Assembly: GCF_003202435.1 (NCBI RefSeq)
Contig: NZ_QJHK01000002.1
Span: 310,001 to 374,000 of the forward strand
Source of the DNA: Flavobacterium cheongpyeongense
GTDB lineage: Bacteria > Bacteroidota > Bacteroidia > Flavobacteriales > Flavobacteriaceae
DNA: 64,000 bases
Reading direction: 5' to 3'
The notes under the pieces are model-generated. The model ran no database searches and was not told where the DNA came from. It saw only the letters and a program-made list of their open reading frames with translations. Shown one piece after another: positions 11,987 to 32,034 of this stretch (position 1 is the first letter of the stretch; each line of letters begins with the position of its first letter). Both the position numbers and the translations under genes were made by a program.

Positions 11987-12281
11987 GCCACTAATGTCAG
12001 TTTGTCTCAAAACCGCCGTATTTATCGTTTTGAGCGTAAATATAATTGATTTAAACTGTAAAAAAATAACTTCCTGTGAAAAGTAGTCTGGTACGCTGAC
12101 CTAAAACAGAGCGGTAAAAGCCTATAAAATGAGTTGTATAAACACGAAAAAACAATGCCAGTGCGTACGTGCCCCACACAGTCGGTGGTGTACTCAGGTT
12201 TTTATTGGTTTTCGTGAATATAAATATTTGAGAGCCTTACTCTTTTCCTTTTGGGGCGGAACTGTCTACTCTATTGGTGGC
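11987..12281 (-). repeat. Family-A long intergenic repeat (attC-like)
   Basis: The outer ends pair as minus-strand GCCACCAAT... and ...ATTAGTGGC, continuing imperfectly as AGACAGTTCCGCC with GGCGGTTTTGAGACAAACT. The right half (11987-12090) matches the other family-A copies ('tttaaactgtaaaaaaataactt'). The left half holds a second hairpin with CACGAAAACCAAT / ATTGTTTTTTCGTG arms (12148-12221) shared with 12.9 kb and partly with 17.5 kb. It separates the gene at 12322 from the Crp/Fnr gene. The small frames inside it are translated repeat. Confidence 0.7.
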
Positions 12282-12842: not shown

Positions 12843-13045
12843 GCCACCAACGTCAGTTTGTCTTAAAACCTATGTTTATTGTTATTTTTGAGCAAATATA
12901 GTTGTATAAACACGAAAAAAAATGCCAGTGCGTACGTGCCCCATACACTCGGTGGTGTACTCAGGTTTTTATTGGTTTTCGTGAATATAAATATTTGAGA
13001 GGCGCACTCTATTCTATTTGGGGTGGAGTCGTCTACTCGATTAGC
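12843..13045 (-). repeat. Family-A long intergenic repeat (attC-like)
   Basis: The ends are minus-strand GCTAATCGAGTAGACGACTCC and ...GACAAACTGACGTTGGTGGC. It contains the same CACGAAAA/TTTTCGTG hairpin block as 11987-12281 but lacks part of the 'tttaaactgcaaaaaaataactt' segment. It starts within 20 bp of the stop of the gene at 13057. An open frame over 12863-13069 is only translated repeat. Confidence 0.7.
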
Positions 13046-14599: not shown

Positions 14600-14733
14600 G
14601 CCAACATCAGTTTCTCTCAAAACCTCCGTTTTTCATTATTTTTAGGGTAAATATAGTTGATTTAAACTGCAAAAAAATAACTTTCGGTGCAAAGTAATCT
14701 GGTAAGCATCCCAAAAAATGAGTTGTATAAACA
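14600..14733 (-). repeat. Family-A intergenic repeat (attC-like)
   Basis: Minus strand: ...GTTATTTTTTTGCAGTTTAAATC... and GGAGGTTTTGAGAGAAACTG, ending in GATGTTGGC at the start of the next gene. It is closely similar to 16453-16571 and 17328-17529. The adjoining 14734-15002 (about 270 bp) has no gene; a short TTGAAC/GTTCAA dyad near 14770-14800 is the only structure I see. Confidence 0.65.
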
Positions 14734-16452: not shown

Positions 16453-16571
16453 GCCTAACAGTTAACATCAGTTTCTCTCAAAACCTCCATTTTTATTATT
16501 TTGAACGTAAATATAGTTGATTTAAACTACAAAAAAATAACTTTCGGTAAAAAGTAGTTTGGTGTGTTAGC
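16453..16571 (-). repeat. Family-A intergenic repeat, shortest intact copy (attC-like)
   Basis: On the minus strand it runs from AGCTAACACACC to GATGTTAACTGTTAGGC. The two arms pair imperfectly along the full length: GCTAACACA with TGATGTTAAC; CTACTTTTTACC with GGTTTTGAGAG; TTATTTTTTTG with CAAAATAATAA. That leaves a ~26-nt terminal loop. The final GTTAGGC fits the integron core-site consensus GTTRRRY. It lies between two gene units with ~10 bp to each, as an attC site would. Confidence 0.7.
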
Positions 16572-17327: not shown

Positions 17328-17529
17328 TAACATCAGTTTCTCTCAAAACCTCCGTTTTTTGTTGTTTTTAGGATAAATATAGTCGATTTAAACTGCAAAA
17401 AAATAACTTTCGGTGTAAAATATTTGGTACGCAGCCAAAAAAAATGAGCTGCAAAAGGCTTTAAAATCAGTTGTATAAACATGAAAAAAACAGTTCGTAC
17501 GTGCCCATACACTCGGTGATGTACTCGAT
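17328..17529 (-). repeat. Family-A long intergenic repeat (attC-like)
   Basis: The right arm on the minus strand ends GAGAAACTGATGTTATC. It contains 'tttaaactgcaaaaaaataa', a 'TACAACTGATTTTAAAGCC' block also found in family B, and part of the GTACGTGCCC/GTGATGTAC hairpin. It is followed directly by a family-C copy, so two repeat types are fused here. Confidence 0.65.
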
Positions 17530-18731: not shown

Positions 18732-18888
18732 CTATTTAGTTTTGTTGTTCTAAAATTCTAAACAACTTTTTTTTATGTTTTGTAAATCAAATATTTATAA
18801 AATATATTTTTTCTTATTATTTCCTTCCATTTTTCCACTTTCGCACTGTTAGCTTACGGAGTCCGGGCAGGTGTATAGGGGGAATTTC

Positions 18889-19014
18889 GCCTAACATTCT
18901 GCTCCTACAAAGGGTTTGGGACTAAATTAAGCCCATTCTCCGGATTTGCCAAATACAAAACCAACTTCCCGTTAAGCAAATTACCTAAAATCAGTTGTAG
19001 ATGTTGGCGTTGGC
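18889..19014 (-). repeat. Family-B intergenic repeat, best attC-like copy
   Basis: Minus strand: starts GCCAACATCTACAACTG just after the stop at 19025 and ends ...CTACAAAGG reversed, ...GAATGTTAGGC. The arms GCC-AACAT / ATGTTAGGC and CTACAA / TTGTAG pair, and pairing continues weakly inwards (TTAGGTAATTTGCTTAA with TTAATTTAGTCC). GTTAGGC is a perfect GTTRRRY. Length ~125 bp, like long attC sites. A further GTTAGC at 18848 may mark the next boundary. The rest of 18732-18888 shows no gene. Confidence 0.7.
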
Positions 19015-20288: not shown

Positions 20289-20783
20289 TTATTGATGTCT
20301 CCAAACAATTAGATTTTCATTTTTTTTCTCAGTTCCATCTTTATAATACAGGATAGCAGTTATGTCTTTATACTTCTTGTCACCTTTAACTATCATTTCG
20401 ATTTGAACATCTCCATCCCTAGGTCTTACTTGTTGAATCATTGTAATCTCTTTAATATTTCCTACTTCATCTTGTATTTTCTTATTATTTAATACATAGG
20501 ATTTGACAGTAGTAATGATTCTCTCGTCAATGTAATAGTCTCTTATTATTAAAAATAGAAAAAACGAAAATAATATAACTTTTAGGAATCTAATTAAGGT
20601 ACGTTTATAATAAAGCTCTTTAATAGCCAAAGCAATAACAAATGTCAAAAAAGTAAAAATTAAAATGTTTTTACTTTCCCAGAAGAAATATAATTTCAAT
20701 ATTCTACATAGAAATCCGTAGATAAAGATTATCAGCAAGACAATAAGTGGTATGTTTTTATAATATCTTTTAAATTTTTCCAT
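20289..20783 (-). CDS. Membrane protein of unknown function
   Basis: 164 residues from the preferred ATG at 20783 (MEKFKRYYKNIPLIVLL). The frame stays open to 20918, but those 45 residues are a translation of the group II intron end and cannot be the natural N-terminus. Three helices (residues ~11-30, 38-55, 63-82) precede a small soluble domain (EITMIQQVRPRDGDVQIEMIV, then DITAILYYKDGTEKKNENLIVW). No family was recognised. Single-gene unit directly downstream of the intron remnant. Confidence 0.55.
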   Translation of the reverse strand: MEKFKRYYKNIPLIVLLIIFIYGFLCRILKLYFFWESKNILIFTFLTFVIALAIKELYYKRTLIRFLKVILFSFFLFLIIRDYYIDERIITTVKSYVLNNKKIQDEVGNIKEITMIQQVRPRDGDVQIEMIVKGDKKYKDITAILYYKDGTEKKNENLIVWRHQ

Positions 20784-20833
20784 ATTGATTTGAATATATT
20801 TCAACTGCGTCATTTCGGCACAACTAGCCCATA

Positions 20834-20935
20834 ATCGAGTCACACAAGGGAATTTCACCCCTACGTTCTCACGGAACCGTACGTGAAAGTCTCCCTTCAT
20901 ACGGCTCTTCATGTTCATAAATCATGCCCCGCTGG
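20834..20935 (-). ncRNA. Group II intron 3' end (domains V-VI), relic 1
   Basis: Domain V is exactly 34 nt at 20874-20907 on the minus strand: GAGCCGTATG, a GAGA tetraloop region, then CACGTACGGTTC. It has the catalytic AGC triad and perfect outer-stem pairing. Domain VI-like hairpin (AGGGG TGAAA TTCCCT) follows, and the intron appears to end at ACTCGAT (20834-20840). No intron-encoded reverse transcriptase is present. 'ggcaaagtcttttcagact' on the 5' side is the base of an older stem. Confidence 0.85.
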
Positions 20936-20959
20936 CAAAGTCTTTTCAGACTCATATCT

Positions 20960-21102
20960 TTAGCGGGAGGCGCGATAGCCTCTTGAAATTCTTATAACTC
21001 ATTTATCGAAAACCCCATAATTACGGAATCTCAGCGATTCCGTTCAACACGGGCTTCATTGTTCGTCCTTCGCACGCAACGAATCCCTTAGCTGTTGGTG
21101 GC
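20960..21102 (-). repeat. Family-C intergenic repeat beside intron relic
   Basis: On the minus strand it begins CTGCCACCAACAGC right after the serine hydrolase stop and runs through GTTGCGTGCGAAGGACGAAC and the perfect dyad CGGAATC-GCTGA-GATTCCG to the intron 3' part. Because a copy is joined to domain V, this block may be the 5' portion of the same intron (domain I), with the interior lost. GTGCG would fit a group II 5' end. That is inference. Confidence 0.5.
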
Positions 21103-21104
21103 AG

Positions 21105-22148
21105 TTATTTTTTCATCAAGTTACTATTCATTATGATTTCTCTAATTTTAATTTCAAACTCGTAAAACAAATCTATATTTTCGTTAGATTGATTTTCTAA
21201 AACAACTACGTCCACGTCTGTCTCGGGAAAATAAACTTTGAATGATACAAAACCTGAACCACCACCTGTGTGTCCCAAATATTTGATTGGTGTTTTGTCG
21301 CTTACTCTTATACCATAACCGTAGCCTATTTTTTCTTTTCCAAAAGCGTTATGTTGTGCAGTAATACTATAAGTTGTCATCAACTTATAAGTTTCTGGTT
21401 TTAAAATTTTTCCGTTGTGCAATAACTTGTCCCAAATATTTAGGTCAGTTACATTTGAGATAATCCCAGCAGCAGAAACTTTATCGTTATTTTCAATAGG
21501 TGTTTCTTCAAGTTTTAAATTATTGTTTGTATTTTGATAGCCTTTAACTCGATTTTGAGTTTTGCCTTGTTCAAAGCAATAGGTGGTTTTCATTTTCAGT
21601 TTTTTAAACAAGTCGTTTGCCACATCATTATATTTTCTGCCTGTAACTTTTTCAATTATTTTTCCAAGCATAATATAAGTTGTATTACCATACTTGAAGT
21701 CAGAACCTGGCTTGAAAATCAAGGGTTTGTCAATATCAGTTATTCCAGCAGAAAAGTTCAATAAATGGTGAACTGTCACGGTGTCTGCCCAACTTTTTGG
21801 TAAATCTGGCAAATATTTTCTAACTGGGCTTTGCAAATCAATTTTTCCATTTTCAACTTCTTTCAAAGTCAAAACAGCGGTAATTTGTTTACTGTTTGAC
21901 ATAATTATAAAATTGTCTTTGGTTGTTAAAGGCGTTTTCTTTTCGATATTTGAATATCCAAAGGCATTCTTATATTTTGTTTTTCCTTTTTGAGTAATCA
22001 AAATAACTCCGCTGAAACTTCTTGGATTTGTCGTTTTGATTAAACTGTCAATTTTAGCAGAATAATCGTCTTTTTCTTGTGCGTAACTATTACAACTTAC
22101 TAAAAGAGTTGTTATGAAAATGGTTAAAAGTCTAATTTTTTGTTTCAT
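21105..22148 (-). CDS. Serine hydrolase of the class C beta-lactamase / PBP family
   Basis: 347 residues with a Sec/lipoprotein-like signal (MKQKIRLLTIFITTLLVSCNSYAQ; the VSC could be a lipobox). Active-site motifs: S-x-x-K in MSNSKQITAV, Y-x-N in FKYGNTTYIM, and HTG in YLGHTGGGSGFVSF. The C-terminus is full length for the family. Such proteins are usually periplasmic esterases, D-Ala peptidases or beta-lactamase-like; true beta-lactamase activity cannot be read from sequence. Single-gene unit in the array, flanked by group II intron relics on both sides. Confidence 0.9.
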   Translation of the reverse strand: MKQKIRLLTIFITTLLVSCNSYAQEKDDYSAKIDSLIKTTNPRSFSGVILITQKGKTKYKNAFGYSNIEKKTPLTTKDNFIIMSNSKQITAVLTLKEVENGKIDLQSPVRKYLPDLPKSWADTVTVHHLLNFSAGITDIDKPLIFKPGSDFKYGNTTYIMLGKIIEKVTGRKYNDVANDLFKKLKMKTTYCFEQGKTQNRVKGYQNTNNNLKLEETPIENNDKVSAAGIISNVTDLNIWDKLLHNGKILKPETYKLMTTYSITAQHNAFGKEKIGYGYGIRVSDKTPIKYLGHTGGGSGFVSFKVYFPETDVDVVVLENQSNENIDLFYEFEIKIREIIMNSNLMKK

Positions 22149-22205
22149 TAAAATTGTCTTGATTTTTTTGTTCTCTTGTTTACGGTGGGGTTGTCATAAT
22201 TGCCA

Positions 22206-22345
22206 ACAATCGAGTCACGCAAGGGAATTTCACCCTACATTCTCACGAAACCGTACGTGATAGTCTCCCTTCAAACGGCTCTTCATGTTCATAAATCACG
22301 CTAAATTAATTCAATTTATGGATATTCCGCTGGCAAAGTCTGAAG
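22206..22345 (-). ncRNA. Group II intron 3' end (domains V-VI), relic 2
   Basis: Domain V is 34 nt at 22248-22281 (minus strand GAGCCGTTTG ... CACGTACGGTTT). A DVI-like AGGG TGAAA TTCCCT hairpin follows, with end at ACTCGAT, joined to TGTTGGCAATTATGAC ahead of the serine hydrolase gene. Nearly identical to relic 3 over ~140 bp, including the palindrome GCAAAGTCT-GA-AGACTTTGC at 22333-22352. No reverse transcriptase is present. Confidence 0.85.
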
Positions 22346-22595
22346 ACTTTGCGTTTTTTTTAAATGTACTTAAAAACCGTAAATCTAATAAAAGTCTCCT
22401 GATTTTTCCGTGAATGGCTTATGAATTCAACACCTTTGTTAATACTTTAGCTTTTTTACAACTCTTTAAACGTATTTCTTACCAATGCAATCCCGCTAAA
22501 AGTCAGGAAACTTTTGACACTTTTATGGATTGGAAAACGATTTTAAATTACGCAAAGTCTGAAAAAGGCTTTGCGTAGCGGTTTATTAGGCACAG
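22330..22595. repeat. Block flanked by inverted CCGCT/GCAAAG palindromes
   Basis: The left palindrome GCAAAGTCT-GA-AGACTTTGC and the right GCAAAGTCTGAAAAAGGCTTTGC bracket ~200 bp. The outer ends are inverted (CCGCTGGCAAAG vs CTTTGCGTAGCGG). Inside is a plus-strand frame of 54 codons (22414-22578, MAYEFNTFVNTLAFLQ...), opposite to every gene around it. It may be a domain-IV or insert remnant of the intron; coding status is unproven. Confidence 0.4.
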
Positions 22596-22601
22596 TTTTT
22601 A

Positions 22602-22970
22602 TTATAGTTCAATGTTTTCATTTCCGTCATCGTCTTCTTCCAAATATAGTTTCCAATTCAGTTTATTAGCAATTTGCTTAAATGTATCAATATATATTTG
22701 TTGGTCTATATTTTGTCCTTTTGAGCAAACAATTGCAACCAAAGTTACGAATTGATTTACGTTAGCAGAAGATGAATAATCTCCATTATAAGTTTCTACC
22801 AATATGATGTCAACCCAAGGGAATTTGTCAGTGTTTGTAAACGATTGGTGATTTGTCTGCTTAAAGAATTCTGTTTCTAATAGACACTGAATCACAACTG
22901 ATTTGTCAAGTTTCTGACTAAAGTTCTCGTTACATTGAATGTTATAGTAATTATATCTGTTGCTCCACAT
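22602..22970 (-). CDS. Small cytosolic protein of unknown function
   Basis: 122 residues with no signal or membrane helix: NRYNYYNIQCNENFSQKLDK, then LLETEFFKQTNHQSF, then FPWVDIILVETYNGDYSSS, FVTLVAIVCSKG, and a very acidic end (YLEEDDDGNENIEL). The layout (short protein, central hydrophobic strands) resembles small immunity or 'orphan' proteins found in cassette arrays, but no family was recognised. Single-gene unit with a family-B repeat upstream and an intron relic downstream. Confidence 0.55.
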   Translation of the reverse strand: MWSNRYNYYNIQCNENFSQKLDKSVVIQCLLETEFFKQTNHQSFTNTDKFPWVDIILVETYNGDYSSSANVNQFVTLVAIVCSKGQNIDQQIYIDTFKQIANKLNWKLYLEEDDDGNENIEL

Positions 22971-23004
22971 TATTGTATTTTTGGTCTCTCGTTTCTTAAA
23001 ATTA

Positions 23005-23137
23005 GCTATAACGACGTCTTGGGACTAAGGGTTTGGGACTAAATTAAGCCCATTCTTCGGATTTACAAAATCATGCCCAATACAAAACCAACTTCCCGTT
23101 AAGCAAATTACCTGAAATCAGTTGTAGCTGTTAGCAG
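23005..23137 (-). repeat. Family-B intergenic repeat (attC-like)
   Basis: Minus strand: begins GTCTGCTAACAGCTACAAC right after the stop at 23147 and ends GACGTCGTTATAGC. The outer arms GCTAAC / GTTATAGC pair. The core 'ggtttgggactaaattaagc' ... 'tacaaaaccaacttcccgtt' is nearly identical to 18889-19014. Confidence 0.7.
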
Positions 23138-23146
23138 ACGGTTTAT

Positions 23147-23746
23147 TTATTCAGCATCTAATTCTTCAAATTCAGAAACTACACTTTCATCAAAGTGATT
23201 TTTATAAAATATTTTATTTTTTTGAATCATACTTTCTGGAAAATAGAAAAAAACAGAAACTGAATTTTGAATTGATAATTGAATATCAAAATCTTTTTCA
23301 GGATTGTATTTTATTTTTGTTAAACTTACTAAATCATTTAAAAAAAACTCTTTTTCAAAATCATTTATGATCTTTGAAAAATATGGATTATGAAAAAAAA
23401 TGTCTATGAAAATTATTAAATTTTTAGCAAGTGGTGATTCTAGAAATCCATTTTCTTCAATTTTATTATTGAAGATTCGATTTATAAGCGTTCGAAAGTT
23501 TTTTATTAATGAATCTGCTAAAAATAATTCAACATTTTCATTTGAAGCTGGATATTGTTGAAAAAGGATAATTAATAAATTAGTATTTTCTCTGTAACTT
23601 ATTTCATTTTCATTGATATAATTGTTCTGAATTCTGTTGACTATTTTCTTAAAGAATTCTAATGATTGTTCTGATATTAATGGCTCAAAAACACTTGAAT
23701 CACATTTTTCCTTAAAAACTTCTAATAATTTTTCGAAATTTTCCAT
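23147..23746 (-). CDS. Helical cytosolic protein of unknown function
   Basis: 199 residues, mostly alpha-helical and Asn/Glu/Lys/Phe rich. There is no signal peptide. Segments such as EFFKKIVNRIQNNYINENEI, NVELFLADSLIKNFRTLINR and KNLIIFIDIFFHNPYF suggest a helical-repeat or immunity-like fold. No family was recognised. The C-terminus is acidic (EFEELDAE). Single-gene unit flanked by a family-B repeat downstream and intron relic 3 upstream. Confidence 0.55.
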   Translation of the reverse strand: MENFEKLLEVFKEKCDSSVFEPLISEQSLEFFKKIVNRIQNNYINENEISYRENTNLLIILFQQYPASNENVELFLADSLIKNFRTLINRIFNNKIEENGFLESPLAKNLIIFIDIFFHNPYFSKIINDFEKEFFLNDLVSLTKIKYNPEKDFDIQLSIQNSVSVFFYFPESMIQKNKIFYKNHFDESVVSEFEELDAE

Positions 23747-23786
23747 TAAATAATTTGGTTTATTTTAGTTTCCGCAACTGTCTGCC

Positions 23787-23935
23787 AATCGAGTATCGCA
23801 AGGGAATTTCACCCTACATTCTCACGAAACCGTACGTGATAGTCTGCCTTCAAACGGCTCTTCATGTTCATAAATCACGCTAAATTAATTCAATTTATGG
23901 ATATTCCGCTGGCAAAGTCTGAAGACTTGCGGCAT
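23787..23935 (-). ncRNA. Group II intron 3' end (domains V-VI), relic 3
   Basis: Domain V is 34 nt at 23827-23860, with one change from relic 2 in the distal stem. The DVI-like hairpin and the end ATACTCGAT are followed by TGGCAGACAGTTGCGG. At the other side (23915-23935) the palindromic GCAAAGTCTGAAGACTTGC abuts and cuts the ISL3 transposase. No reverse transcriptase is present. Confidence 0.85.
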
Positions 23936-24342
23936 GTATGATTCTATTGACAACATTAAAGCCACATCGCAACATACCCGCCGTTTTAGATTGGTTTTTA
24001 GTCGCTAATAACCTATCGATTATCAATATTTCAAAAAGAAAAGTATGTGTATTTCCTTCGGAAGCCCATGGAACTTTAATACTTTCAATCTTACCATCTT
24101 TGGTTTTTATTCGGGGAATTTTAGCATTGATATAGGTTTTAAACTGCATGATGTCTAGGTGTCGCCATCTACGGTGATCTCTATAATCGTGAACAAATTC
24201 ATAAGTTGCTGTATATGTCTTTTTATAATCATCTAAATTCCATTTCAAATATATCAACCTCATTATCTTCGTTGAAATCAATTTTTTCAACTTTCCATTC
24301 CGGACCAAAATTAAATAGCTTATCAAAAAAATCTTCTGTCAT
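23936..24342 (-). pseudogene. ISL3-family transposase, frameshifted and truncated
   Basis: The first frame starts at 24342 (MTEDFFDKLFNFGPEWKVEK ... NEDNEVDI) and ends in a stop near 24232. The second frame continues the family sequence: YKKTYTATYEFVHDYRDHRR, WRHLDIMQFKTYINAKIPRI, VPWASEGNTHTFLFE, KTAGMLRCGFNVVNRIIHAA. The join lies at a short TA run (24248-24255), where two bases appear to be missing (GATATATTTG where GATATATATTTG would keep the frame). The DDE catalytic domain is gone, cut at ~23936 by intron relic 3. No full IS ends are visible. It marks the upstream edge of the accessory array. Confidence 0.85.
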
Positions 24343-31880: not shown

Positions 31881-31952
31881 CTGAATGCTTTTATCTACTA
31901 AAGTTACATAAAAAATTAAAAACCTTAATACATCTTTTGAAACCAACTACCA

Positions 31953-32034
31953 TAGCCCTGGTAGCAGCGGCATCCTTTTTGTCCTGTTTTTTTAACGGGA
32001 CAAAAAGATATAGCGAATAACAGGAAATAGCTCC
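31953..32034. repeat. REP-like imperfect palindrome of flavobacterial type
   Basis: A central perfect dyad CTTTTTGTCC / GGACAAAAAG (31975-31984, 31998-32007) is flanked by 'agcagcggcatc' and 'agatatagcg...aatagctcc'. This resembles, from memory, a dispersed repeat in Flavobacterium intergenic regions. No gene lies in 31881-32119 otherwise. Confidence 0.5.

Follow-up and report, generated by a model that had tools for sequence, protein, structure and literature searches.

Group II intron 3' ends at attC-like sites of a Flavobacterium cassette array: probable remnants of a Bacteroidota lineage inserting in the R' core

A 64,000-nucleotide (nt) stretch of the 5.2-Mb genome of Flavobacterium cheongpyeongense (C25:310001-374000, hereafter the window) contains three short elements that resemble the 3' ends of group II introns and lie between the genes of what looks like an integron-type cassette array. 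The locus raises the question of which intron left these ends behind and why they stand at cassette boundaries. Comparison with intact relatives suggests an answer: the window copies are very probably 5'-truncated remnants of a distinct Bacteroidota lineage of group II introns that targets attC-type sites, inserting in the R' core of the site by retrohoming.

Three intron 3' ends and their missing parent

A search of the window with the Rfam model RF00029 identifies each of the three elements above the gathering score, on the minus strand and with E-values of 1.2e-9 to 2.7e-5 (Table 1). An earlier reading, made from the letters and their open reading frames (ORFs) and referred to here as the sequence-only reading, had placed group II intron 3' ends at these three places, and its coordinates for the 34-nt domain V segments are exact. 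In the genome-wide search the third element (23788-23862) scores 39.7 bits, just below the gathering score of 40. Seven such 3' ends are present in the genome, five of them above the cut-off: three in the window, two on contig C9, one on C86, and one on C84 (150 of 241 first-look candidates scored). The window E-values and the seven copies together exclude a chance match. An eighth site, L070:12365-12586 (G000:C9:17365-17586, G000 being this genome), comprises a type I attC left arm, a palindrome, and domain VI only.

The hallmarks of a group II intron 3' end, namely domain V, domain VI with its branch A, and an AY 3' end, are present in all three window copies. In particular, each keeps the AGC triad, the A seven bases before the end, and the terminal CGAT, in agreement with the triad and the domain VI-like hairpin plus ACTCGAT that had been described before. 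The description of the domain V sequences as perfect applies to copy 1, where domain V is fully paired, and fails for copies 2 and 3, which have non-standard pairs; copy 3 also has GGGAG changed to GGCAG and GCGTGACTC changed to GCGATACTC. The remnants and the flanking genes are all on the minus strand, and the remnants lie between genes, so that both their orientation and their position at cassette boundaries are as the sequence-only reading had them. Mechanically called ORFs do overlap copy 1 (20289-20918) and copy 3 (23895-24326), but an in-frame ATG at 20783 would let the first of these genes clear copy 1.

The rest of the intron is missing from this genome. A 516-nt query did not find the 5' part of the lineage (domains I-IV, with a GUGYG 5' end) in the genome, with 23 of 23 candidates scored; its sole match, 40 nt at C25:153255-153294, lies inside a fragment of another intron lineage. 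Searches, RVT_1 among them, found no intron-encoded reverse transcriptase (RT)/maturase of the lineage in the genome and no intron RT match within the window. The single RVT_1 match is a 504-amino-acid (aa) ORF on contig C12, and the other searches add small fragments elsewhere. The copies are relics with no RT nearby, as had been supposed. The fragment C25:152985-153158 was considered as a parent and rejected, since its lineage is a different one: its identity to the intron of genome G149 is 83%, and that intron has a different 3' exon; domains I-IV and the RT start, with stops, of such a different intron extend over C25:152985-153800 (L066).

Table 1. Features of the remnant-bearing part of the array (window coordinates; G323, same-genus genome with the full-length intron)
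Feature	Position	Strand	Domain V	RF00029 match in window	Identity to G323 intron 3' end	Description
Intron-free attC-like junction	18888..19007	-				type I, for comparison
3' exon of remnant 1	20827..20833	-				R'-like core TATGGGC
Intron remnant 1	20834..20924	-	20874-20907	20834-20909, 61.5 bits	97.8% over 91 nt	domains V and VI, with about 17 nt upstream of domain V; 3' splice site at 20834
Left end of remnant 1 junction site	21037..21098	-				R''-like CCAACA, then GCTAAGGGATTCG (repeat family A, first ~60 nt)
3' exon of remnant 2	22202..22208	-				R'-like TGTTGGC
Intron remnant 2	22209..22329	-	22248-22281	22209-22283, 48.7 bits	90% over 121 nt	starts at last codons of lost intron ORF
Palindrome GCAAAGTCTTCAGACTTTGC	22333..22352	.				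abuts 5' edge of remnant 2; similar edge at other remnants
Intron-free attC-like junction	23005..23134	-				type I, for comparison
3' exon of remnant 3	23781..23787	-				R'-like TGGCAGA
Intron remnant 3	23788..23908	-	23827-23860	23745-23862, 43.7 bits	87.6% over 121 nt	most degenerate; upstream end of array

An intact relative, its guide loop and its target

The full-length parental intron envisaged by the sequence-only reading, sharing the 3' end of the remnants, is absent from this genome and present in another genome of the genus, G323. The G323 intron is intact, 1,856 nt long, begins with GTGTGACTTGAAC, ends with GTGACTCGAT, and has the orientation of the genes. Its protein is an RT/maturase of 409 aa with YADD, and stops so soon after FAHW that an endonuclease domain would not fit. 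The intron is flanked by ...GCCAAGCGGCCAAACGT and TAGCGATAACC (AAACGT| and |TAGCG), and joining these flanks yields the empty site AAACGTTAGCG, corresponding to the R' core, the right end of an attC-type site. What the remnants retain starts with the final codons of the lost ORF, which read TATATCCATAA in G323.

Relatives of the G323 intron occur both within and beyond the genus. An F. frigidimaris protein is 95% identical to the G323 intron protein over residues 1-213, and in G300 there is a copy that has lost the ORF but kept its two ends (flanks ...AAAACGT and TAGTCAC), besides two further 5' junctions. When a remnant-bearing site was used as query against 398 same-genus genomes (two candidates scored per genome), 107 matched, mostly by the left part (repeat family A, below) and several by the intron part alone; the end of a putative intron protein ORF lies directly before the intron part in G323, G382 (two copies), G017, G300, G045, and G271. 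A 5' query of the lineage, beginning 9 nt inside the intron and scored in the same manner, matched three of the 398 genomes at E <=3e-45 (G104, G300, G323); weaker matches, at E 6e-5 to 6e-4, came from another four. Among named genomes 157 relatives were found, 80 were kept, and 18 of the 80 were examined; those with a match to GAGCCGT also have AGC. Loci L114, L116, L163, L165, and L170 match both RF00029 and RF01999 (group-II-D1D4-2) above gathering; the window copies match RF00029 only. Domains I-IV and the GUGYG 5' end, missing from this genome, are present in G323 and its relatives. The ORF-deleted intron at G300:C183 (L116:3581-4383), with both ends and domain V, is possibly mobile in trans.

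Mapping of the exon junctions places them in attC-type sites. Specifically, the 3' exon starts T[A/G], as in R', after 18 of 18 lineage 3' ends (one of which is domain VI only, and a few of whose boundaries are extrapolated by 1-10 nt), and after 0 of 4 ends of sister-type introns. Twelve named-genome relatives have at least 65% identity and a 3' region; T[A/G] follows 9 of their 10 readable 3' ends, L164 differing, with L167 (contig end) and L175 (disrupted) unreadable. The 5' exon ends ACGT at 12 of 15 junctions, the exceptions being G300C51 (ATGT), G104 (ACGA), and L164 (GCGT).

A hairpin in domain I, AGGUAGUU-ACGUUUG-UACCU, has a loop that matches these exons. In 14 copies the loop bears ACGUUU, complementary to AAACGU; the full loop ACGUUUG, as exon-binding site 1 (EBS1), is complementary to CAAACGU, a match to intron-binding site 1 (IBS1) of up to 7 nt. 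L166 has a compensating change, with EBS1 ACGTAGG (loop ACGUAGG) and exon CCTACGT. Among 11 more distant introns, 10 lack ACGTTT in the 650 nt preceding the ORF, and in the remaining one it stands in a different context. In the G104 copy a regular expression found no EBS1 loop. The loop in 14 copies, the compensation in L166, and its absence from 10 of 11 distant introns indicate that EBS1-IBS1 pairing is the main determinant of the target. A hairpin in the exon may assist: at 8 of 14 5' junctions, a hairpin lies directly upstream, ends at the junction, and outdoes shuffled sequence (<=2 of 100 shuffles), L163 and L165 among the eight sharing nearly the same attC, and at L175 an upstream hairpin is visible by eye.

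The proteins of these introns form one clade. The G323 protein and eleven others at 65-85% identity to it group together with support of 100/100 in a tree of 31 of the 80 named-genome loci, G323, and G149 (L173 and L199, with partial proteins, excluded; L174 and L205 long-branched and frame-broken). Named members are from Bacteroidota only: Flavobacteriales, Cyclobacteriaceae, Saprospiraceae, Spirosomataceae, Bernardetiaceae, Prolixibacteraceae, Porphyromonadaceae, and two unplaced. Within the clade the attC insertions are scattered among others, some of them unread, and do not form one group, the pattern to be expected from inheritance of the guide rather than of the locus. The G323 protein has a C-terminal P-x-LF-x-HW, which we take to be a class D motif.

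The sequence-only reading had linked the remnants to group IIC-attC introns, and an origin as relics of a standard intron of that group would account for the association with attC-like sites, the stem-loop upstream of the insertion point, and the best solved-structure score of the intron protein, that of the GsI-IIC RT (167 bits). Yet these scores, which include 136 bits for 6me0 (presumably a IIB-type maturase) and 123 bits for LtrA, assign no class. The parallel with S.ma.I2-type introns is real insofar as these too are endonuclease-less group II introns at attC sites with an upstream hairpin, including in integrase-less arrays, according to the accessible parts of three sources (PMC7923331, PMC4424553, PMC8876359). 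As described in the accessible part of one of them, however, IIC introns have a CGC triad, and those of the IIC-attC type run counter to the cassettes and enter the bottom strand of attC at TTGT/T, with EBS1 pairing of 3-4 bp (PMC7923331). The present lineage has AGC, lies in gene orientation, and targets the top strand at CAAACGT|T in R' (AACGT|T, between GT and TAG), with 5' exons in ACGT and 3' exons in T[A/G] rather than TTGT/T, and with an EBS1 match of up to 7 nt. The triad, the gene orientation, and the top-strand R' core target leave the IIC-attC label unsupported, and we regard such an origin as very improbable.

The attC-like sites of the array

The larger ORFs at ~4-24 kb of the window are nearly all on the minus strand, and the intergenic stretches between them contain repeats. 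In the direction of the genes, many junctions resemble attC sites in reading RYTAAC...hairpin...(G)TTAGC. By eye, intron-free sites have R'' RYYYAAC and R' GTTRRRY at their ends, 2 of the 16 listed lacking GTT at R', and remnant-bearing sites have ATTR in place of GTTR. A left-arm pattern of type I, the commonest type (<=3 mismatches), occurs at 26 places in the genome and at none for the reversed control. Eleven of these 26 left arms lie at G000:C30:1002-32701, probably a larger cassette array.

In an arm test on 26 sites (14 from this genome, 2 intron-free from relatives, and 10 intron-occupied, picked by eye and with one regular expression), own partners pair better than swapped ones (0 of 5000 permutations). 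The 10 intron-occupied sites alone give the same result (0 of 5000), and a test on 21 sites agrees (without L072:11803, L072:3234, L075:16410, window:23134, and L175).

Several observations weigh against a lineage that targets attC-type sites. L164, L166, L169, and G104, four of 14 junctions, are without an attC hairpin, so that the upstream hairpin is not obligatory. G300C51 resembles attC by eye yet scores 50 of 100 in shuffles; the first copy of L163, attC-like by eye, scores 94 of 100, with only 102 nt of flank (cut) and an assembly gap within the intron. Just one fully intact same-genus copy was found. The arm test on the 14 own-genome sites alone is not significant (331 of 5000), many arms being near copies, and no integron integrase above the cut-off was found in this genome. 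The last two points would also fit junctions that are not attC sites at all, the intron targeting instead a dispersed repeat with AACGTTAG, as would the absence of IntI at 1e-40 from 199 same-genus genomes in a search that had no positive control. We hold this to be distinctly unlikely: R'' (AAC) and R' (GTTR) stand at the ends of ~105-150-nt imperfect palindromes, the two arms vary in concert when sites from different genomes are compared (0 of 5000), and genes and sites share one orientation. Because the attC-like arms pair but the genome has no integrase above the cut-off, we call the array CALIN-like (CALIN, cluster of attC sites lacking integron integrases), with putative attC sites.

Degenerate integron integrases were considered and rejected: the 12 TIGR02249 matches reach 97.6 bits at best against a cut-off of 265, and 14 control genomes match too. 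The matches include a 165-aa C-terminal frame and decayed fragments, which we found no reason to call IntI. At C88:112855-113082, C1:165152-165870, and C84:296848-297324 (G000), TIGR02249 weakly matches recombinase frames that are decayed or partial, two of them ~1 kb from family A repeats.

Repeat family A is widespread and independent of the intron, occurring at L070:9024-9150, L071:9951-10074, window:20990-21098, and genus loci such as L084 and L086-L089. It has an R''-like AACAGC, a GTGCG/GCACG hairpin, a conserved GTGTTGAACGGAACCGCTGAGATTCCGC...TTTTTCGATAAATGAG, and often a terminator-like AAGAGGC..GCCTCTTTTTTT end. As a candidate for the intron 5' end, family A (AACAGCAAGGGATTCGTTGC..., with its terminator-like hairpin end) was rejected, since many genomes of the genus contain it on its own and the intron in fact starts differently, with GTGTGACTTGAAC.

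Further repeats and genes of the window include two 89% identical repeats (12148-12275 and 12915-13042); just past the latter, the reverse strand reads ...GTCTACTCGATTAGCAAC, an intron-like ACTCGAT with an R'-like core, in which no domain V was recognised. Right-arm repeats at 11992-12085, 14603-14696, 16463-16556, and 17329-17422 carry TTTTTTTG..TATATTTAC, presumably resembling a Bacteroidota promoter and pointing to the next gene, and left arms elsewhere have terminator-like ends. The cassette gene between remnants 1 and 2 (21105-22148) encodes a Pfam Beta-lactamase family protein (PF00144, E 8.8e-53); four other scanned flanking ORFs have no Pfam match. Rfam places a Flavo-1 RNA at 31950-32031.

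Decay, spread and relation to known introns

The sequence comparisons suggest the following course of events. AGC-triad group II introns without an endonuclease domain would insert by retrohoming into the R' core of attC-type sites, in cassette-gene orientation; the intron RNA would recognise ...CAAACGT|T through EBS1 (ACGUUUG), probably aided by the attC hairpin just upstream, and insertion would split R' (AACGT|TAGC). Later losses in this genome would have removed the 5' portion of the intron, its protein, and the right arm of the attC site, leaving a 3' end of ~90-121 nt fused to the left part of the site, with the truncated form at several junctions.

A chimeric edge, CAGCGG followed by an AATATCC variant, is present in six of seven remnants, and copy 1 has a different variant. 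The palindrome before the edge (<=2 mismatches) occurs at seven places in the genome, five of them at intron-bearing or hybrid junctions; on these counts, a genome-wide palindrome family was rejected as the cause of truncation. The left parts are not uniform: four copies have family A and two have another type, and at copy 3 none was recognised. Comparison of the genes flanking the seven copies, by where DNA similarity stops, confines the similarity of the two C9 copies to R'' through 12 nt past R'. The differing left parts and this confined similarity indicate that a single truncated form has come to stand at several junctions; it may have spread by gene conversion between sites or by movement of sites.

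One possibility is that the remnants were co-opted as working attC right arms, domain VI pairing with the left arm, so that the sites would still fold and recombine and would owe their retention and copying to this. Each remnant ends exactly at R', and junctions that differ in their left arms share the truncated edge. In three copies the domain VI segment TCCCTTGC finds its complement in L'' GCAAGGGA, with 6 bp in a fourth, and the hybrid site L070:12365-12586 keeps domain VI alone. The complementarity is short, however, and the score of copy 1 (12) is equalled by 2 of 11 left arms from intron-free sites (L073, L075_11440). Moreover, the copies do not count as independent cases, no such left arm accompanies remnants 2 and 3, and R' has lost its leading G (GATTAG versus CGTTAG). 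Domain VI as a rebuilt attC arm is therefore only suggestive, and co-option is unlikely on present evidence. A broader proposal, which we rate slightly lower still, is that Bacteroidota arrays host their own non-IIC, attC-programmed introns, with truncated derivatives that take the place of the right arm, can still fold with the left one, and travel onto unrelated genes as part of the site; if so, the remnant would be a natural tag of how attC sites become attached to new genes.

We return to remnants of an R'-targeting lineage and its closest known counterparts. In halophile arrays, the accessible part of a 2021 paper describes IIB introns, of which one follows an attC immediately and is oriented like the genes, as well as two fragments truncated at the 5' end (PMC7923331). 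These integron or CALIN introns (UHB.I2, H.ha.F1, H.ha.F2) resemble the present lineage as non-IIC introns in cassette arrays: UHB.I2 shares the AGC triad, the gene orientation, and the position directly after attC, and H.ha.F1 and H.ha.F2 (class E) keep only the 3' part (domains V and VI and part of the ORF). UHB.I2 differs in belonging to CL1, in its unusual ends (UUGCG..GU), and in its poorly conserved exons, and that part of the paper reports no lineage-wide targeting of the R' core (PMC7923331). RmInt1-type class D introns are likewise endonuclease-less and IIB-like; as a difference, the G323 protein has 43-45% identity to rhizobial plasmid intron proteins. Proteins without an endonuclease domain are listed for classes A, C, D, E, and F in the accessible part of PMC3552965.

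A 2015 review, in its accessible part, ascribes attC targeting to class C introns (PMC4424553), to which the 2021 paper adds the few IIB cases in halophiles, and the accessible part of the IntegronFinder 2.0 paper names one complete Bacteroidota integron, in Salinibacter ruber (PMC9024848). A literature search found no work joining group II intron, attC, and Flavobacteri, and nothing related for group II introns in Bacteroidetes integron gene cassettes; most subscription journals lie outside its coverage, and novelty is thus unproven. If the reading is correct, attC targeting would have arisen outside class C too, in a whole lineage with a guide loop that matches the R' core of attC. The remnants would then serve as a tag for following attC sites in integrase-less Bacteroidota arrays, and the short, common target might be practical for directed insertion.

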